Assembly: GCA_016188575.1 (NCBI GenBank)
Contig: JACPHN010000023.1
Location: 62,001-126,000, forward strand
Source: Candidatus Schekmanbacteria bacterium
GTDB lineage: Bacteria > CSSED10-310 > JACPHN01
Reading direction: 5' to 3'
DNA length: 64,000 nucleotides
In this document: in pieces, positions 44,172 through 56,907 of the stretch
Numbering within the stretch: position 1 is the first letter of the stretch
Layout: each line of letters begins with the position of its first letter
Program-made: the position numbers and the translations under genes
Notes under the pieces: model-generated
Told to the model about the DNA's origin: nothing
Databases searched by the model: none
Seen by the model: only the letters and a program-made list of their open reading frames with translations

Positions 44172-44675
44172 ATGGGGTTTTCCCAGGTGCTGGAAGCACT
44201 CGCCGACCGCCGGCTCGAAGAGGCCGCCGCGGACCTGGAATCGGCGCTGGGACTCGATTGCGAGGAGGAGATGCTCGCTCTGCCCTTACACCTGTTGGCG
44301 CTCATCGAGTTCCTTCGCCGCGAACCGAACAACGCGGTCGAGTTTCTCGAGGAAGTGGCCGATATCGAGCAGCGCCTCGGGTACGAGACTCTCGGTGACC
44401 ATAGTTACAAGCAGGTCGATCTGGTGGCAGACCCCGAGCAGAACCTGGCGAGTTTGGCCAAGCACTACCGTGAGGCCATAGAAGCCGCGCAGCTCAAGAA
44501 CAACTACCTGGACGCGGCGTTATCGCTGAAATCCCTCGGCGAGCTATTTCTCGTGCGCGGGGAGCGCGATCGGGCGGTGGGCCTGTTCGAAAAAAGCCGT
44601 CTGATGTTCAAGCGGGCCTCAGACCCCGCAGCGGGGCACCTATCTCAGTGGTGTACGCTGCTGGCAACGCATTGA
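44172..44675 (+). CDS. Small TPR-like helical protein (167 aa)
   Basis: 167 residues, all helical, with two or three degenerate TPRs (LEEAAADLESALGLDCEEE, AHYREAIEAAQL-type and GELFLVRGERDRAVGLFEKS). No signal or membrane span. AAGGAGAG precedes the ATG. Its 3' end overlaps the converging sortase gene by 68 nt, so one of the two may be mis-ended, but both have coherent family-like C-termini. Function unknown. Confidence 0.68.
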   Translation: MGFSQVLEALADRRLEEAAADLESALGLDCEEEMLALPLHLLALIEFLRREPNNAVEFLEEVADIEQRLGYETLGDHSYKQVDLVADPEQNLASLAKHYREAIEAAQLKNNYLDAALSLKSLGELFLVRGERDRAVGLFEKSRLMFKRASDPAAGHLSQWCTLLATH

Positions 44676-45276
44676 CCACGAGCGCGGACGCCTTGCCGGC
44701 AGCGGGCTGAGCGGCCAGCGCGCGCACGACGTATCGCAGTCGTGCCGACCGCAGCCCGTGAAACGGGTAGCAAGTGATCAGCGTCAGGGTGTCCGCCGCG
44801 GTACTATCGAGAACGGCCACGTCGGAAGCGTGGACTACAGTCGTTTCGACGGCGCGGTAGCGGACGGTGCGGCCTGGTGTCGTCACCATGATCTCATCAC
44901 CCACCTCGAGGTCGGCCAGAAACGCGAACCACGAATCGCGATGCCCTGCAATGACGACGTTTCCGGGCGATCCGGGCCAGGCCGTGCCGTCAACGTGCCC
45001 TGGCCCGAAGGCGAGCGAGCTACCCGAAGCACCGCTCAAGACCGCTCGGCGAACACCGAGCCGGGGGACTTCGAGGCGCGCGATGGGATACAGGTCCGCC
45101 CACGACCAGGGGCGGTGGTGGCCAGCGTCTTTGAGATGTGCCACCAGCGCCCGATCGATCAAGACTGCGGCAAAGGCCGCCTTCGCCGTCAGCCAGAGTT
45201 GCTCTCCAAGCAGCGCCAAGCCGGCGGCGATCAGCGCTGCCGCGACTCCGAGCCGGGTGCGCCGCGACGCGATCAT
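44608..45276 (-). CDS. Class GN/marine proteobacterial-type sortase
   Basis: 222 residues: an N-terminal membrane helix (about 10-38), then a sortase domain with His112 (VVIAGHRDSWF), Cys169 (TLTLITCYPF) and Arg181 (SARLRYVVRA), the full catalytic set. This is the Gram-negative sortase family that occurs beside a VIT/VWA target protein, exactly as here. It would cut the C-terminal signal of its substrate and transfer it to an envelope nucleophile. The ATG at 45276 has GAGGAGA upstream and lies 11 nt after the VWA stop. The long upstream extension of the frame (to 45822) is antisense-like noise. Confidence 0.9.
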   Translation of the reverse strand: MIASRRTRLGVAAALIAAGLALLGEQLWLTAKAAFAAVLIDRALVAHLKDAGHHRPWSWADLYPIARLEVPRLGVRRAVLSGASGSSLAFGPGHVDGTAWPGSPGNVVIAGHRDSWFAFLADLEVGDEIMVTTPGRTVRYRAVETTVVHASDVAVLDSTAADTLTLITCYPFHGLRSARLRYVVRALAAQPAAGKASALVVNALPAAYTTEIGAPLRGLRPA

Positions 45277-45287
45277 GGGCCGTCTCC

Positions 45288-47411
45288 TCAGCGGGCGCTG
45301 CGCGTCAAGGCGAGTCCGACCGCGAGCAAGGCCAGTCCCGCAAACAGGCGCAGAGGGGCATCGGTTCCGCCACGCGGCAGCATGCCGTGGGACATTCCTG
45401 CCGGCACGGCATTGGCGAGGCGGTGCTCCCGCGACTCTCCGGTTGCTGTGGAAGTTTCGTCCACCGCGACGAAGCTCGTGTAGGGGGTCACCAGCTTGAA
45501 GAGCGTGGCCAGGGAGATGACGTCCGCGCGCACCTGCCCCGCCGCGGCGCCATCGTGAAGCGAGTCGAGCAGTGCCTCGACCTTGGCGCGCGCCCAGCGC
45601 GTGGCGATGCCCGTCGACGTGTGGGCGCTTGGCCTGGAATCCACGCGCAGTGCAAAGGAGGCGCTCGCCGACTTGCCGCGCACCGCGACAGATACCTCGT
45701 CGTGGGCACCCCGGAGCCTGACCGCCGCGACCAGCGGCTCCCGCGCGAACAGGTCCGGCAACGGATTCGGGTACACCTCCGCGGTGACATCGATTCCCCA
45801 GTCCAGCGCAAGGTCGGTCCAAACCGGCCGGTCGAGCCGGGCGAAAAAAGCGTCGATCGGGTTGACGTCCGTCTCGTTTTCGGCGATGAAGGTCGACAAT
45901 CCCTGGCCCAGTTGCGCCATTTTCCGCATCAGATAACGGTTCGGCGCGGAGCCGATGCCGATCGTGTGCAAGCGGGTGGATCCGAGGCGTGGCGCAATCT
46001 CGGCCAGAATCGCGGCCTCACCGCTCACGGCACCATCCGTTAGAAAGACGATCTGGGTAACGGCGCCGCCGTTTGCTTCCCGGGCGACCAGATCGAGGGC
46101 CGTGATCAGCGCACCTCGAATGTTCGTGCCGCCTCCGGCTTCCAGACGAGCCACCCATGCCGACACTGACGCCACGTTCGCGGCAGTGGCCGCATAAAAG
46201 GAGCCGCCGAATGTGGACGTGTCATCGTCGAACTCGACGATACCGAAGCGGTCCGTGGCCCGCAATCGGTGGAGCGCCGCCGCCAGCGCTTCCTTGGCGA
46301 GGTGAATTGACGCTCCCGCCATCGAACCGGATGTGTCGATTACAAAAAGCGTGCTGGCCGCGAGCGACTTGCCACTTGGGCGCCAGGCGGGCGGGACGAT
46401 CATGAGCAGCCCGTAGGTCTCGCCATCTCGGGTCTCGGTGAGGAGCGCGGTGGTCGGTTCATCGCCAGGACGGGGCCGCCACCGCAGTGTGAAGTCGCGG
46501 TCGGGCAGGAAGTCGCCGGCAGGCGGCAGCACGAGCCAGGCGCCATCGCGCTCAATCGCATGAATGGGATGCGAGTCACTGGTTACCTCGGTGAGCGGCA
46601 CACCGGCGTCGATGCGCACGGAGATGATTCCTTTCGGGGCGGGCCCCGAGCTTGAGGAAGCGAAGGGAGGACTGACGCGGTCCGCCGCTGAGGCATCCGC
46701 GGCGGCGCTGGTGAACCGCGGCGTGAGCGTGAACGGGAACGCCAGGCTGAATGCGCCCGCCTCGTAGGATACCTCGTCGACGAAGCTCACGATGACCGTA
46801 ACGGACTCGCCTGGGTTGACGTTGGCGACGCTGGTAGTGAACAGGTTGGGCCGCGCCTGATCGAGCAGGGCCGCCTTGCGGCCGGTGGCGCGGGCGTTGG
46901 CGTAGGTGGCCTGCGCCTGCTGGCGCTCCATGATCTTGCCGGCGATCTGACGGGAGCCGATGCGCAGCTCGAGGCCATCCACGGCGCTGCGCTCGGGGAG
47001 CGGCAAGACGTATATGGCGTCGATGACGTGGTCGGTGGGGTTGGCGAAGATCTGGGTAACCGTGCCCTGAGCGACCAGCCCGGCCACGCGAATGTCGACA
47101 GACATATCCAGAATGGGCAGCGGAATTAGCCCATCTGGAGATTGCCACAGCAGCTCGCCGCTACCAACTTCGTCAGTCGAGGCGACGGGGCGTGGCTTCC
47201 AGAGCTTCAGCAGCCGCTCGAAAATCGGGTTTGCGGCGTGAAGCTCGGCGCGGGCAGCGGGGCAGAGCAGCAGGAGGAGCAGGGCGGCGACCAGCGAGAG
47301 AAGCGCGGCGGTCGCTGCGCGCTGGCCGGTGCGGCGGTGACAGGGAAGGAGGGGGAGTGTTTCGGCGCCGCCAGCGGAGCGCGGCAGATGGAGATGTGCG
47401 GTGGCATGCAT
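45288..47411 (-). CDS. VIT and VWA domain protein, sortase target
   Basis: 707 residues: signal peptide (helix LLSLVAALLLLLLCPAARA near 35-55), VIT domain (about 80-210, VAGLVAQGTVTQIFANPTDH), VWA domain (about 335-510) with an intact MIDAS start FVIDTSGSMAGASIHLAKEA, and a C-terminal tail with LPRGGTD, a hydrophobic helix and RSAR. That tail is the likely sortase signal. This is the 'marine sortase target' architecture and the sortase follows 11 nt downstream. It is probably an adhesion or binding protein displayed on the cell envelope. The ATG at 47411 has GGAG upstream. Confidence 0.9.
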   Translation of the reverse strand: MHATAHLHLPRSAGGAETLPLLPCHRRTGQRAATAALLSLVAALLLLLLCPAARAELHAANPIFERLLKLWKPRPVASTDEVGSGELLWQSPDGLIPLPILDMSVDIRVAGLVAQGTVTQIFANPTDHVIDAIYVLPLPERSAVDGLELRIGSRQIAGKIMERQQAQATYANARATGRKAALLDQARPNLFTTSVANVNPGESVTVIVSFVDEVSYEAGAFSLAFPFTLTPRFTSAAADASAADRVSPPFASSSSGPAPKGIISVRIDAGVPLTEVTSDSHPIHAIERDGAWLVLPPAGDFLPDRDFTLRWRPRPGDEPTTALLTETRDGETYGLLMIVPPAWRPSGKSLAASTLFVIDTSGSMAGASIHLAKEALAAALHRLRATDRFGIVEFDDDTSTFGGSFYAATAANVASVSAWVARLEAGGGTNIRGALITALDLVAREANGGAVTQIVFLTDGAVSGEAAILAEIAPRLGSTRLHTIGIGSAPNRYLMRKMAQLGQGLSTFIAENETDVNPIDAFFARLDRPVWTDLALDWGIDVTAEVYPNPLPDLFAREPLVAAVRLRGAHDEVSVAVRGKSASASFALRVDSRPSAHTSTGIATRWARAKVEALLDSLHDGAAAGQVRADVISLATLFKLVTPYTSFVAVDETSTATGESREHRLANAVPAGMSHGMLPRGGTDAPLRLFAGLALLAVGLALTRSAR

Positions 47412-47586
47412 CGTTCGTGTTCTCCGTAAGAGGACATGGACCTCATGCGAAGAGGAGCACGAAGCGTGCCATCGACCCGATCGCGCGGTGCTCGCGTCCG
47501 AGCAGTAGAGACAGGGGCGGAGGCGTGGCTCTTTGACACGTACTGTGGCCGGCGGGCACGGCCGCGCCCGCCGAGCGAGGAAAGCA

Positions 47587-47603
47587 GCCGGCAAGTCGCC
47601 GGC
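47587..47603 (-). terminator. Hairpin after the selenoprotein gene
   Basis: GCCGGC-N5-GCCGGC then TGCTTTCC on the minus strand, 16 nt after the methyltransferase stop. The weak T-run makes it a possible terminator only. Confidence 0.35.
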
Positions 47604-47618
47604 CGCCGTGAGGCATTG

Positions 47619-48407
47619 TCAGGCGTCCAGCCTGCGAGCGTAAACGTTGATGCCGACCACGCCAAACTTCCGTGCCGTCTTCTCCTTCGACGTGCCCAGG
47701 AAGGGATCGAACCTGCGGACCTCGCGCGCGTCCGCGAACCCGTGCTGGCACAGGCCATCGGTAAGCTCTGCGACCTGCAGAGCACCGGCAATTCAGCCGG
47801 TCCAGAGATCGATATCGCGGCGGGTTTTCTCCGACAGGTCCTGCTCGACGACGATGTCGGCAAGCTGAAGACGGCCGCCGGGCCGCAGGATCCGCGCGAT
47901 CTCGCGGAAGGCGCGGCTTTTATCGGGGGTAAGGTTGAGGACGCCGTTGCTGATGACAACGTCTGCGGAGGCTGTGGCCACCGGCAGGTCGAGGGCGTCA
48001 CCGCGCCGGAGCTCGACGTTGGTAGCGCCCATGACCTTGACCGCGCGATCGGCGCGCTCGAGCATCTCGGTGGTCATGTCGACGCCGATGGCGCGGCCGG
48101 ACGGGCCAACGCGCCGGGCGGCCAGCAGGAGATCCATGCCGGCGCCGCAACCGATGTCGACAACGACCTCACCCATCTGCAGAGGCGCGATCGCGCACGG
48201 GTTTCCGACGCCGGCAAACGAGGAGGTGGCATCCGCGGGGAGCGCCGCGAGCTCGGCGAGATCGTAGCCGAGCCGCTCGGCGGCGTAGTGCGGGCCACGG
48301 TGAAAATGGAACTCGCCGTTCGGCTCCACCGCGACGCGCGAGTAGATGGCGCGAACCTCGACGGCGAGGCGCGCCGTATCGAGATCGACCGGGCAACTCA
48401 AGGACAT
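47619..48407 (-). CDS. ArsM/UbiE-type SAM methyltransferase, predicted selenoprotein (UGA = Sec205)
   Basis: 262 residues if TGA 47793-47795 is read as selenocysteine. The SAM site is VVVDIGCGAGMDLLL with GVDMTTEML and ISNGVLNLTPDK, typical of arsenite-methyltransferase-like proteins. At RRDIDLWTG the frame meets TGA, then continues IAGALQVAELTDGLCQHGF and on to ARKFGVVGINVYARRLDA and a TGA at 47619. In ArsM-like proteins WxGC[I/V]AGAL carries a conserved Cys, which in algal ArsM binds arsenic, so TGA replaces exactly that residue. A SECIS-like hairpin follows. I recall methyltransferase selenoproteins (named MduS) in public models but cannot confirm identity. The ATG has GGAGG 8 nt upstream. 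Confidence 0.85.
47759..47795 (-). promoter_or_regulatory. Bacterial SECIS-like element at in-frame UGA
   Basis: After the TGA and a 16-nt interval that contains the stem, a perfect 7-bp helix GCTCTGC/GCAGAGC closes a 5-nt loop AGGTC (47772-47776) with G among the first two or three bases. Below it CGGT pairs with ACCG across a TT bulge. Bacterial SECIS elements sit directly after the UGA with a short G/U loop 16-37 nt away, which this fits. Confidence 0.82.
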
Positions 48408-48657
48408 GAAACAGTCCTCCGTCGGGTTGAAGGAAGGGTCGCCCGGCCCGGCGCGGCGCGCCGGGTGGCGGCCATGATGCTTTCTGCTTGTAGCATGCGC
48501 CTGACGGCGAAACAAGCGCCGAGCGAGCGGTGACGTGCGGAGCGGCCGCGATCGCCGGGAGCTACGACCCATTGGCAAGGGTCTTTCGCGGCGATAGCAT
48601 GAATGCAGGCGTCGCGCCTTTCACTGGAAAGACCCCTCGCGCTGGGATGGTGCCGGA

Positions 48658-53031: not shown

Positions 53032-56000
53032 CTATTCGGGTGCCATGCCGAGGTCGCGCGCTACCCGGTCGCGGAGCTCGACGACAAAGCTCACGGCCGG
53101 TTTGGCGAGGAAGCCGGCGAGCCTTTCGGGGGCTATGGAGTTTTGCGCGCGCCGTAGGAGCTCGTCCGCTTGCCCGAGCTCCGTGCGAGCGACATCGCGG
53201 TGCCCCAGATGCAGTTGGGCCCAGGCAGCCAGAGCGTGTGCGCGCGCTGCAATAATGGTGGGAATGGAGCCGGGTTGCGAATTTTCGAGCCGGCCGAAAG
53301 CGGCAAGGCTTGAACCCAGGTCGCCCTGGCGGTAGGCGACCTCCTGAAGCAAGCAATGCGCCTCGCTCCATGCTCGCAAACTGACGCGCGACCAGTCGGC
53401 CAGCTTTTCATCCGAGAGCGTCTCCATGACTTTGCCGACTCGGCCACCAGCGAGCAGGCAGCGCGCTTCGATAACTCGCGCCTCCGCTACATCCTCCTCG
53501 TTGCCACCCATCGTCGTGTCGGCCAAGGCTCGGGCAACAATCATCAGTGCTTGTTCAGTATCACCGCGGCTGCAAGCCGCCTCGGCAAGGCGAGACAGGC
53601 CCATGCCGCGCAGATCGGTAGCGCCCGCCGCCCCGAACAGCTCGACGGCGGCAGCAAGATGCTGAGCGGCCTCTGTGGTCACGCCCTGTGCGTCAAGGCA
53701 CTGCCCCAGATTGAAGCAGGCGTAAGCCTGCCCGAGGCGGTTCTGCACTGCCTCCTGTAGGGAAAGGGCTTCTCTGAGATGCGTCTCAGCATTCATGAAC
53801 GACTCTCGCTCCAGCAGCAACCGCCCCAAGTTGTTCAGGGCAGTTGCCAATCGTGCTGGGTCTGCCACTTCCCGGCATTCGGTAGCGTGGCGCTCGAAAA
53901 GGGACACCGCCTCGTTTTCGGCACCGCTTTGGTGGGCCGCAATCGCCCAGTTTCCCAGTGCGTGGAGCTTGGTGGCCGGGTCGCCCAGCCGCGCCGCCAG
54001 CTCATAGGCCGCGCGATGACGCGCGAGAGCGGCCACAGGGTCGGTGATGAGGTCGAGAACGCCGAGCCGATCAAGCACCGAGGCGAGGAGATCCAGCATC
54101 TCGTCCCCCCCCGAACGTGCCAGCTCGTGCGCCTCGTTCACAGCCTCGTAGGCCGCCGGGACGTTGCCCGTGATGTAGCACACCGTCCACCGCGCCAGCA
54201 GCGCTCCGACGCGTGCCCTCACCAGTCGCACCGGCACGGCGCCACCATCCTCCGCCGCACCGTCCCGCAGCCCATCCGCCTCCGCGAGCGCCACGTCGAG
54301 CTCGCACAGCGCCTCGTCGTTGCGCCCCGTGTGCGACAGCACCTTGTCCGCCAGCTCGGTCCGCGCCTCGATGGACTCGGGTCCGGGCGCCGGCGCCAGG
54401 GACAGGAAAGCCCGGTACAGCCCTTCCGCGGCGTCGTGCGCGTAGCGCGCCACCTCGCGGCGGGCCGCCCGCAGGTAGTACGGCAGCGCGCGCTCGACCA
54501 CGCCCGCCGCCCGCCAGTGCTCCGCGAGCCGTGCCAGGTGCTCCTCCAGTTCCGCGCCGCAAACCTCCTCGATGCCCAGCGCCGCCGCCCGATGCGCCGC
54601 GACCCGCTCTCCCGTCGCCATGCCCTCGTAGGCCACCTGGCGCACCTTCGCATGAGAAAAGTGCAGCTCACCCCGCTCTGCTTCCGCGAGGATTCCCCGC
54701 TGCACCAGCGCGTTCACCGCGCCAAGCACCGCGTCATCGTCGCCGCCGCTGACCCGCTGCAGCAGCACCGGCGGAACCGCGGCGTCGAACACCGCCGCCG
54801 CGCGAAGAACCCCTAGCTCCACCAGCGACAGGTCCGCCAGCCGCCTGCCGAGCAGCTCCCGCAGCGAGGTCGGAAGCGGCAGATTCCAGTCTTCGCCGCG
54901 GACCGCGCCTGAGTGCTCCGCCCGCGCCTCGAGCCGCCATGCTCCAAGCTCGTCCCGCCACAGGACATTCGCCGCCACTGCAGCTCGCAGATACTCTGCC
55001 ACGAAGAACGGATTGCCCTCCGCGTGCCGGTTCAGGTAGCCGCTGAAGCTCTCCGGAAGCCGATCCATGGCGAGCATGCCGGCGACCATGGCCGCGATCG
55101 CCCGCGTATCCAGCGCCGCCAGCCGCAAAGTGTCCACGCCGGGAGCCTCCACGATGGCGCGCAACGCCGGTCCCGGCTCGTCGGTCCGGTACGTCGCCAG
55201 TACCATCAGCGCCCGGTCGCGCGCGACCTCGTGCCGCAGCGCGTGGGCCACGGCGCCGAGCGACAGATCGTCGGCCCACTGCAGGTCCTCGAGCACGAGC
55301 AGGATCGGATGGCCAGCTACCTCGGCCGCCGCCGCGAAGGTCTCCCACACCGCCCGAAAAAGGCGGTCGTGCGCCTCACGCACAGGCAGCGCGACGGGTT
55401 CCGCGAGCGCCTCCTGACCGGCCAGCGACCGCAGCGACGGCTCGTAGGGGTTCAGCACCTTGCCGCGCAGACCGAAAATTCGCTGCGCCGCGTCCCCACC
55501 GCTTTCCCGGCACCAGTCACCGAGCAAGCGGAGCGGCCGTTGAAACGGCTCGAGCGCCTGCCTCCCGGCCGCCCCTCCCCCGCCGCAGGCGCCGTCCAAG
55601 ATGTCGATCGCCATCGCCGCCGCCGCGTGCCCGGCCTCCATCGCGAGTCTCGTCTTCCCCACTCCAGTTTCGCCGCCGAGGAGCAGTGCGCCCCCCTGCC
55701 CGGCGGCCGCCCCGGCCAGGCGCTCCTCGAGCTCTGACAGCTCGGCCTGCCGCGACACGAAGGCCGGCCGGTAGAGATAGGTGCGTGGTCGCGGCGCGTC
55801 CGCAAACCCTGCGTCGCCCGCCCCAAGCTCCGCCAGCGCCGCGCCCACATCCTGGGCGTAACCGATGCGGCGCGCCTGATCTTTCTCCAAGAGGCGCAGC
55901 ACAAGCTTGTCCAGCGCGTGCGGTACCCCCTGCGCGAAGGTCGATGGCAGCAGCGGCACCCGCCTCAGGTGGGCCTCCAGGACGCTCGCCGTGGGCAGGT

Positions 56001-56907
56001 GGCGAAACGGCGGCGTGCCGGTGATGAGCTCGTAGAGAATGCAGCCGAGCGCGTAGAGGTCGGTCCGCGCATCGATGAGCTCGCCGCGGATCTGCTCCGG
56101 CGCCATGTAGTCGGCGGTGCCGGCGATGGAGGCGTCGACCTCGAAAGCCTCGCGCCCGGCGTCGCCGGAGAATCGGGTCCACAGGCCGAAGTCGACGATG
56201 ACCGGCAGGCCGTTCGGGCGGATGATGATGTTGACGGGCTTGAGATCGCGGTGGACGATTCCCTCGCCGTGCAGATAGGCGAGCGGCACGCAGAGGCGAC
56301 GGACCTGAGTCAGCACGGCGGTGAGCTGCCCGCCGGCGGCCTGCGATCGCGGGAGGGGAGCGGCCTCGGGCGGCGGCGAGCCCAGCCTGTTGTCCCAGGT
56401 CGCGGAGCGCGCCTCGTTGTCGCCGGCGAGCGCCCGGGGGCTGATGACCGTGGAGCCCATTGGCGTCGCCGCCGGGTGCACGCTGGTGGTCGTAGATGCC
56501 GGGCCGGTGGCGTCGACCGCGTCGGTTTCGCGCGACCCGAGCTCCGCCCCCTCGGTCGTCGGCTCGCCCCCGGCCACCCACGTTCCGGCGACACGCGGGG
56601 CCACCGGCTTCAGGCCGCCAAAGTGTTCGCGCAGAGTCACCCCTTCTATCAGCTCCATCGCGTACCACGGCGCCCCCTCCAGGACACCGTGGCCGACGAT
56701 GTGCACGATTCCCGGGTGCTGGAGCGATGCGAGCGCGAGGATCTCGCGGCGCAGCGCGGACAGGCTGCGCTGGCGCTGCGCGCGGACCGTCTTGATCGCG
56801 ACGCGCTCGCCGCTGCGCTCGTCCGTGCCATGGTACACGACGCCCATGCCGCCGCTGCCCAGCACGCCGTCGATGCGATAGTGGCCGATTCGCTCGGGTG
56901 AGCCCAT
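53032..56907 (-). CDS. Ser/Thr kinase-AAA ATPase-TPR signalling protein
   Basis: 1291 residues. Kinase domain (about 8-340): Gly-loop GSGGMGVVYHG, Lys39, HRD 219-221 (IVHRDLKPVNI), DFG 239-241, MAPEQ. Between the hinge and helix E is a Ser/Thr/Ala-rich insert (about 100-192). Then an AAA/NACHT-like ATPase (about 400-700) with GGETGVGKTRLAMEAGHA and LLVLEDLQWADD, then TPR-like repeats (about 780-1291). This three-part plan is that of large bacterial signalling ATPases (AfsR/TOMM-kinase-like) that regulate transcription or secondary metabolism, but no output DNA-binding domain is seen. ATG at 56907. Confidence 0.9.
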   Translation of the reverse strand: MGSPERIGHYRIDGVLGSGGMGVVYHGTDERSGERVAIKTVRAQRQRSLSALRREILALASLQHPGIVHIVGHGVLEGAPWYAMELIEGVTLREHFGGLKPVAPRVAGTWVAGGEPTTEGAELGSRETDAVDATGPASTTTSVHPAATPMGSTVISPRALAGDNEARSATWDNRLGSPPPEAAPLPRSQAAGGQLTAVLTQVRRLCVPLAYLHGEGIVHRDLKPVNIIIRPNGLPVIVDFGLWTRFSGDAGREAFEVDASIAGTADYMAPEQIRGELIDARTDLYALGCILYELITGTPPFRHLPTASVLEAHLRRVPLLPSTFAQGVPHALDKLVLRLLEKDQARRIGYAQDVGAALAELGAGDAGFADAPRPRTYLYRPAFVSRQAELSELEERLAGAAAGQGGALLLGGETGVGKTRLAMEAGHAAAAMAIDILDGACGGGGAAGRQALEPFQRPLRLLGDWCRESGGDAAQRIFGLRGKVLNPYEPSLRSLAGQEALAEPVALPVREAHDRLFRAVWETFAAAAEVAGHPILLVLEDLQWADDLSLGAVAHALRHEVARDRALMVLATYRTDEPGPALRAIVEAPGVDTLRLAALDTRAIAAMVAGMLAMDRLPESFSGYLNRHAEGNPFFVAEYLRAAVAANVLWRDELGAWRLEARAEHSGAVRGEDWNLPLPTSLRELLGRRLADLSLVELGVLRAAAVFDAAVPPVLLQRVSGGDDDAVLGAVNALVQRGILAEAERGELHFSHAKVRQVAYEGMATGERVAAHRAAALGIEEVCGAELEEHLARLAEHWRAAGVVERALPYYLRAARREVARYAHDAAEGLYRAFLSLAPAPGPESIEARTELADKVLSHTGRNDEALCELDVALAEADGLRDGAAEDGGAVPVRLVRARVGALLARWTVCYITGNVPAAYEAVNEAHELARSGGDEMLDLLASVLDRLGVLDLITDPVAALARHRAAYELAARLGDPATKLHALGNWAIAAHQSGAENEAVSLFERHATECREVADPARLATALNNLGRLLLERESFMNAETHLREALSLQEAVQNRLGQAYACFNLGQCLDAQGVTTEAAQHLAAAVELFGAAGATDLRGMGLSRLAEAACSRGDTEQALMIVARALADTTMGGNEEDVAEARVIEARCLLAGGRVGKVMETLSDEKLADWSRVSLRAWSEAHCLLQEVAYRQGDLGSSLAAFGRLENSQPGSIPTIIAARAHALAAWAQLHLGHRDVARTELGQADELLRRAQNSIAPERLAGFLAKPAVSFVVELRDRVARDLGMAPE

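Follow-up and report, generated by a model that had tools for sequence, protein, structure and literature searches.

A predicted selenoprotein methyltransferase of ArsM ancestry whose relatives carry UGA, UAG or Cys codons at a single position

A methyltransferase gene on the minus strand of the window (the whole 64,000-nucleotide stretch of DNA analysed) is interrupted by an in-frame TGA, and judging from its sequence and that of its relatives we are highly confident that it is a genuine selenoprotein gene, with selenocysteine (Sec) at codon 205. The features on which this reading is built are as follows.

47619–48407, minus strand: full-length methyltransferase coding sequence, 262 residues with Sec at 205, Methyltransf_31 and NF008823-like, terminating at the TGA at 47619–47621
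47793–47795, minus strand: in-frame TGA, predicted to encode Sec as residue 205; its counterpart in CmArsM is C224
47765–47783, minus strand: bacterial SECIS hairpin, 7-bp stem (47783–47777 / 47771–47765) and loop 47776–47772 (AGGUC)
48416–48420, minus strand: Shine-Dalgarno-like GGAGG, seen in the sequence 8 nt 5′ of the ATG

Translation of 48407–47619 with TGA read as U yields MSLSCPVDLD...IDLWTG-U-IAGALQ...VYARRLDA-stop, with U as residue 205; the frame holds 262 codons, and a second TGA forms codon 263. This agrees with the sequence-only reading, which had placed a TGA at residue 205 of an ArsM-like frame and had seen that frame run on to another TGA. Its expectation that gene callers would truncate the protein was also borne out, the ORF called with translation table 11 ending at 47793. 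Standard annotation stops such genes at residue 205 and misses the decisive residue. Among ten close Chloroflexota genes, pN/pS is 0.15 after the Sec codon and 0.14 before it.

The hairpin follows the UGA after a 9-nt spacer (GCUCUGC / AGGUC / GCAGAGC), its apical loop begins 16 nt past the UGA, and its RNA fold z-score against dinucleotide shuffles is –2.8. According to published rules, a bacterial SECIS element (bSECIS) has a loop of 3–9 nt, a stem of 4–16 bp and a G in loop positions 1–2, and lies 16–37 nt from the UGA (PMC13188914). The window hairpin satisfies these rules, and its stem covaries among relatives. The perfect 7-bp stem, 5-nt AGGTC loop and 16-nt distance noticed earlier stand as described. 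For the window gene alone, synonymous re-draws of the same peptide give seven of seven pairs in this register with a chance of 1.6%. In the fixed register, the 28 Sec genes together pair 184 of 196 cells (93.9%) and the 12 Cys genes 36 of 84 (42.9%), while synonymous codon re-draws of the same 28 genes pair 129 ± 4.6 of 196 (66%), with a maximum of 143 in 500 re-draws. The 25 distinct sequences are 93.7% paired in register versus 27–51% in slid registers, and as a set outscore every one of 500 shuffles on three measures out of five. Two-sided (compensatory) changes occur in them at three stem pairs, the third pair being found as U-A, C-G and G-C, and RNAalifold, unaided, proposed the same seven pairs. 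Three genes with UAG at the Sec site share the standard register only partly; a candidate hairpin, read by eye, is offset by two nucleotides and has a CGUGC loop. The hairpin is retained beyond codon constraint only in stop-bearing genes.

A scan of named genomes returned five full-length members of the subfamily. The codon aligned with codon 205 is TGA in a Thioalkalivibrio MAG (L036) and a Chloroflexi MAG (L038), TAG in Modestobacter sp. DSM 44400 (L039), and TGC in Dadabacteria (L037) and Hyphomicrobiales (L040). Searching 400 Chloroflexota genomes revealed 31 close members, 26 with an in-frame TGA and 5 with Cys; in all 25 loci that were read TGA lies at the same codon, within the motif LW[TS]G-U-IAGAL, and non-TGA members have Cys there. 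Full-length Cys forms are found on haloarchaeal plasmids as well, and the viral contigs searched contained no relatives of the methyltransferase. On the tree the window gene clusters with the Sec gene L036 and the Cys gene L037, and 6 changes of the Sec/Cys label are needed, of which well-supported branches demand 5; exchange of Sec and Cys has been repeated, with at least 5–6 changes. Three genes of a second, more distant Chloroflexota methyltransferase group (L126, L127, L128; motifs FTG[LV], NG[IL].NL and WF.-stop-I[AG]GA) also have TGA at the equivalent codon and likewise lack equivalents of C72 and C174 of CmArsM.

Two further genomes in the order of Modestobacter have TAG at the Sec site, making three actinobacterial genomes, and tRNA-Sec(CUA) is present in all three (genes L039/L130, L131, L132; tRNAs L068, L161, L166, L137). 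The Modestobacter tRNA-Sec (L068) has the anticodon CUA, one of the three genomes (G496) has both CUA and UCA tRNA-Sec genes, and ARAGORN names the CUA genes tRNA-Pyl. Homologues thus show Cys (TGC/TGT), UGA, or UAG together with tRNA-Sec(CUA) at this position, which answers the alignment check proposed from the sequence. Such a triad at a single codon, with anticodons that match, lets Sec recoding be tested cleanly in nature. Among TGA-bearing Chloroflexota genomes, 22 of the 23 tested have tRNA-Sec; no convincing tRNA-Sec was found in two TGA-bearing draft genomes, the Thioalkalivibrio MAG (G008) and G141, probably because these drafts are incomplete. Four genomes with the Cys form (G197, G303, G009, G012) showed no convincing tRNA-Sec either, and five others (G267, G255, G408, G687, G420) carry one, so a Cys form implying absence of tRNA-Sec is not a rule.

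All four genes selA, selB, selC and selD, proposed as a check by the sequence-only reading, are present in the gene's own 9.2-Mb genome: tRNA-Sec scores 76.8 bits and has the anticodon UCA, and the matches to SelA, SelB and SelD reach 473.6, 366.4 and 340.6 bits, respectively. The SelD gene (L123, contig C166) itself has an in-frame TGA within CAGUASK, at codon 510 of frame 1, with a hairpin after the UGA; a second predicted selenoprotein gene of the same genome would thus use the same device. A second SelB-like match (C261:32-1141; 183 bits, below the cut-off) lies close to a contig edge.

The properties that define a bacterial selenoprotein gene are therefore found together here: a UGA aligned with a conserved Cys/Sec and flanked by coding sequence on both sides, a conserved bSECIS, and selA, selB, selC and selD. 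We propose that the ribosome would decode UGA at codon 205 as Sec, guided by the hairpin that follows after 9 nt and relying on the host's own SelA, SelB, SelD and tRNA-Sec(UCA). If the TGA were instead a real stop, the gene would be a pseudogene, would encode a truncated 204-residue enzyme, or would contain an assembly error for TGC/TGT. Standard ORF calling does end at 47793, and the Rossmann core is already complete before the TGA, but TGA recurs at this codon in 25 Chloroflexota loci and a gammaproteobacterium, three actinobacteria have TAG there, each with a matching tRNA-Sec(CUA), and Cys is found elsewhere. Conservation of the codon, the UAG/CUA match and coding selection that continues unchanged past it lead us to reject truncation or assembly error, and a hairpin kept beyond codon constraint in stop-bearing genes alone also speaks against a real stop, which we regard as very improbable. 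Reading TGA as another amino acid through a different code is unneeded since the gene itself terminates with TGA and Sec machinery is present. Insertion of Sec at the TGA, as proposed from the sequence, is supported by machinery, codon conservation, SECIS covariation and selection.

An AlphaFold model of the methyltransferase (pLDDT 94), built on 27 alignment rows with plasmid-derived rows left out, predicts an ArsM fold with a SAM-binding Rossmann core. The closest solved fold to the model is CmArsM of Cyanidioschyzon merolae (PDB 4fr0; Z 27.0, rmsd 2.0 over 213 residues); CrArsM is also among the closest folds, and methyltransferases of other function follow with Z near 21. U205 aligns with C224 of CmArsM (C206 in human AS3MT), an arsenic ligand, in line with the earlier suggestion that the TGA stands at the arsenic-binding Cys of algal ArsM. 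In CmArsM, C72, C174 and C224 bind As(III) and all are needed for methylation of inorganic As(III), while methylarsenite methylation is retained by C72A but not by C174A or C224A (PMC3877260). Compared with CmArsM and AS3MT, the window protein has no equivalents of C72 and C174, a shorter C-terminus, and Sec in place of Cys; of the three ligand sites it retains just one, C224, and fills it with Sec. V stands at the C72 site of the window protein, with T or M in some relatives, all aligned members have G at the C174 site, and position 205 is the sole invariant Cys/Sec among the 36 members aligned. Subfamily motifs are FHF, FAG[VTM], SNG[VI] and LWTG-U-IAGAL. Another ArsM of the same genome (L019) keeps all three arsenic-binding cysteines.

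Among curated families the best match is NF008823 (arsenite methyltransferase), in which the window protein scores 228 bits, under the cut-off of 263; five relatives score 209–222, and all six members tested fall below 263, while the ordinary ArsM of the same genome passes with 286. Because C72 and C174 are missing and the cut-off is failed, we assign the protein to ArsM by ancestry and fold and refrain from classing it with the arsenite methyltransferases. The earlier label of ArsM accordingly describes fold and ancestry and leaves ArsM activity putative, since the other two arsenic ligands are missing.

The product would be a class I SAM-dependent methyltransferase, 262 residues long, from a standalone subfamily with just one invariant chalcogen residue, a Sec or Cys that occupies the CmArsM C224 position, and its selenolate may hold a soft electrophilic or metalloid substrate beside the methyl group of SAM. 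As only the C224 position remains, the substrate is more likely a trivalent arsenical that already carries methyl groups, or some other soft species of a metalloid or chalcogen. By our own estimate, an arsenical or other metalloid takes somewhat under half of the weight, reduced selenium or sulfur chemistry slightly less than a third, and something else about a quarter. An ordinary arsenite methyltransferase, turning As(III) into methylarsenicals and having Sec where one Cys used to be, would account for NF008823 being the best curated family and for CmArsM and CrArsM being the closest folds, and PMC13188914 lists a Sec-containing ArsM with UxxG as verified by experiment. The bit scores of the six members tested argue against it, as does the replacement of C72 (mostly by V, T or M) and the constant G at C174 in the members read; moreover, the recurrent neighbours of relatives are not ars transport genes. 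We consider this activity improbable.

Those neighbours bear on another possibility, methylation of reduced sulfur or selenium (persulfide, selenide, low-molecular-weight thiols) in reactive chalcogen detoxification. On draft contigs and uncorrected for taxon, relatives recurrently lie near MBL-rhodanese (8 loci), OsmC (8) and MFS transporter (10) genes, as well as ArsR-rhodanese regulators, TusA and DsrE; an MBL-fold plus rhodanese protein, an ArsR-rhodanese regulator and an MFS gene recur around the Sec methyltransferase at L038, L167–L170, L173, L179 and L183. In 27 ordinary arsM control loci no OsmC, TusA, DsrE or MBL-rhodanese was found, and their overlap with the loci of the relatives is confined to regulators of the ArsR type and a small number of MFS genes. 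The neighbours hint at detoxification of reactive sulfur, selenium or metalloids. Nevertheless, rhodanese and OsmC genes could accompany metalloid resistance too, and none of these neighbours stands beside the window gene, which is flanked by VIT/VWA and sortase genes on one side and a carboxypeptidase-regulatory-domain protein on the other, a neighbourhood that says nothing on function. We view a role in chalcogen methylation as somewhat unlikely. Elsewhere in the window, the VIT/VWA protein and the sortase after it (44608–47594, minus strand) are likely a sortase-target pair, and 53032–56907 (minus strand) encodes a 1291-residue serine/threonine kinase with AAA ATPase and TPR parts.

A more far-reaching reading, to which we give somewhat less than an even chance, is a standalone Sec subfamily, spanning Chloroflexota, Actinomycetota, Pseudomonadota and the window's own phylum, in which one selenolate would stand for the three thiolates of ArsM, the substrate would be other than inorganic arsenite, perhaps a reduced chalcogen, and in Modestobacter and its relatives the codon would have changed from UGA to UAG along with the tRNA. 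Should no other soft ligand exist beside the lone Sec, a comparison of Sec with natural Cys forms would reveal what selenium contributes to methyl transfer.

The Sec site as such is already known, since an arsenite methyltransferase with UxxG is listed as a verified selenoprotein (Fomenko et al. 2007, via PMC13188914), along with three Sec methyltransferases that have a second domain (PMC13188914). The deep-Sep paper names no methyltransferase, and in the literature, partially covered, we did not find the standalone single-ligand subfamily or its UAG-coded members. UAG-decoded selenoproteins with tRNA-Sec(CUA) have been reported for Geodermatophilaceae (PMC5330540), and the relatives in the order of Modestobacter share this Sec codon and tRNA; the proteins named in the accessible part of that report are FDH, UGSC and AhpC, with no methyltransferase among them. 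ArsM_AhpD_UU (NF041537), ArsM_DUF2284_UU (NF041536) and MTase_UXPK_star (NF047649) also have a methyltransferase domain with Sec at UxxG, but they add a second domain and have more than one Sec, whereas the 262-residue window protein is a single domain with one Sec, lacks their second C-terminal Sec domain, and scores 218, 202 and 185 bits against cut-offs of 510, 575 and 460, respectively; with NF008823 included, no named NCBIfam cut-off is reached. The published Sec arsenite methyltransferase (NF008823, UxxG) likewise combines the ArsM fold with U-x-x-G (U-I-A-G in the window protein); the subfamily described here falls under the NF008823 cut-off and has no cysteines at the C72 and C174 positions of CmArsM, which may set it apart from the published representative. 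Methyltransferase selenoproteins with U at this UxxG site are therefore already catalogued, and the branch to which the window gene belongs differs from them.
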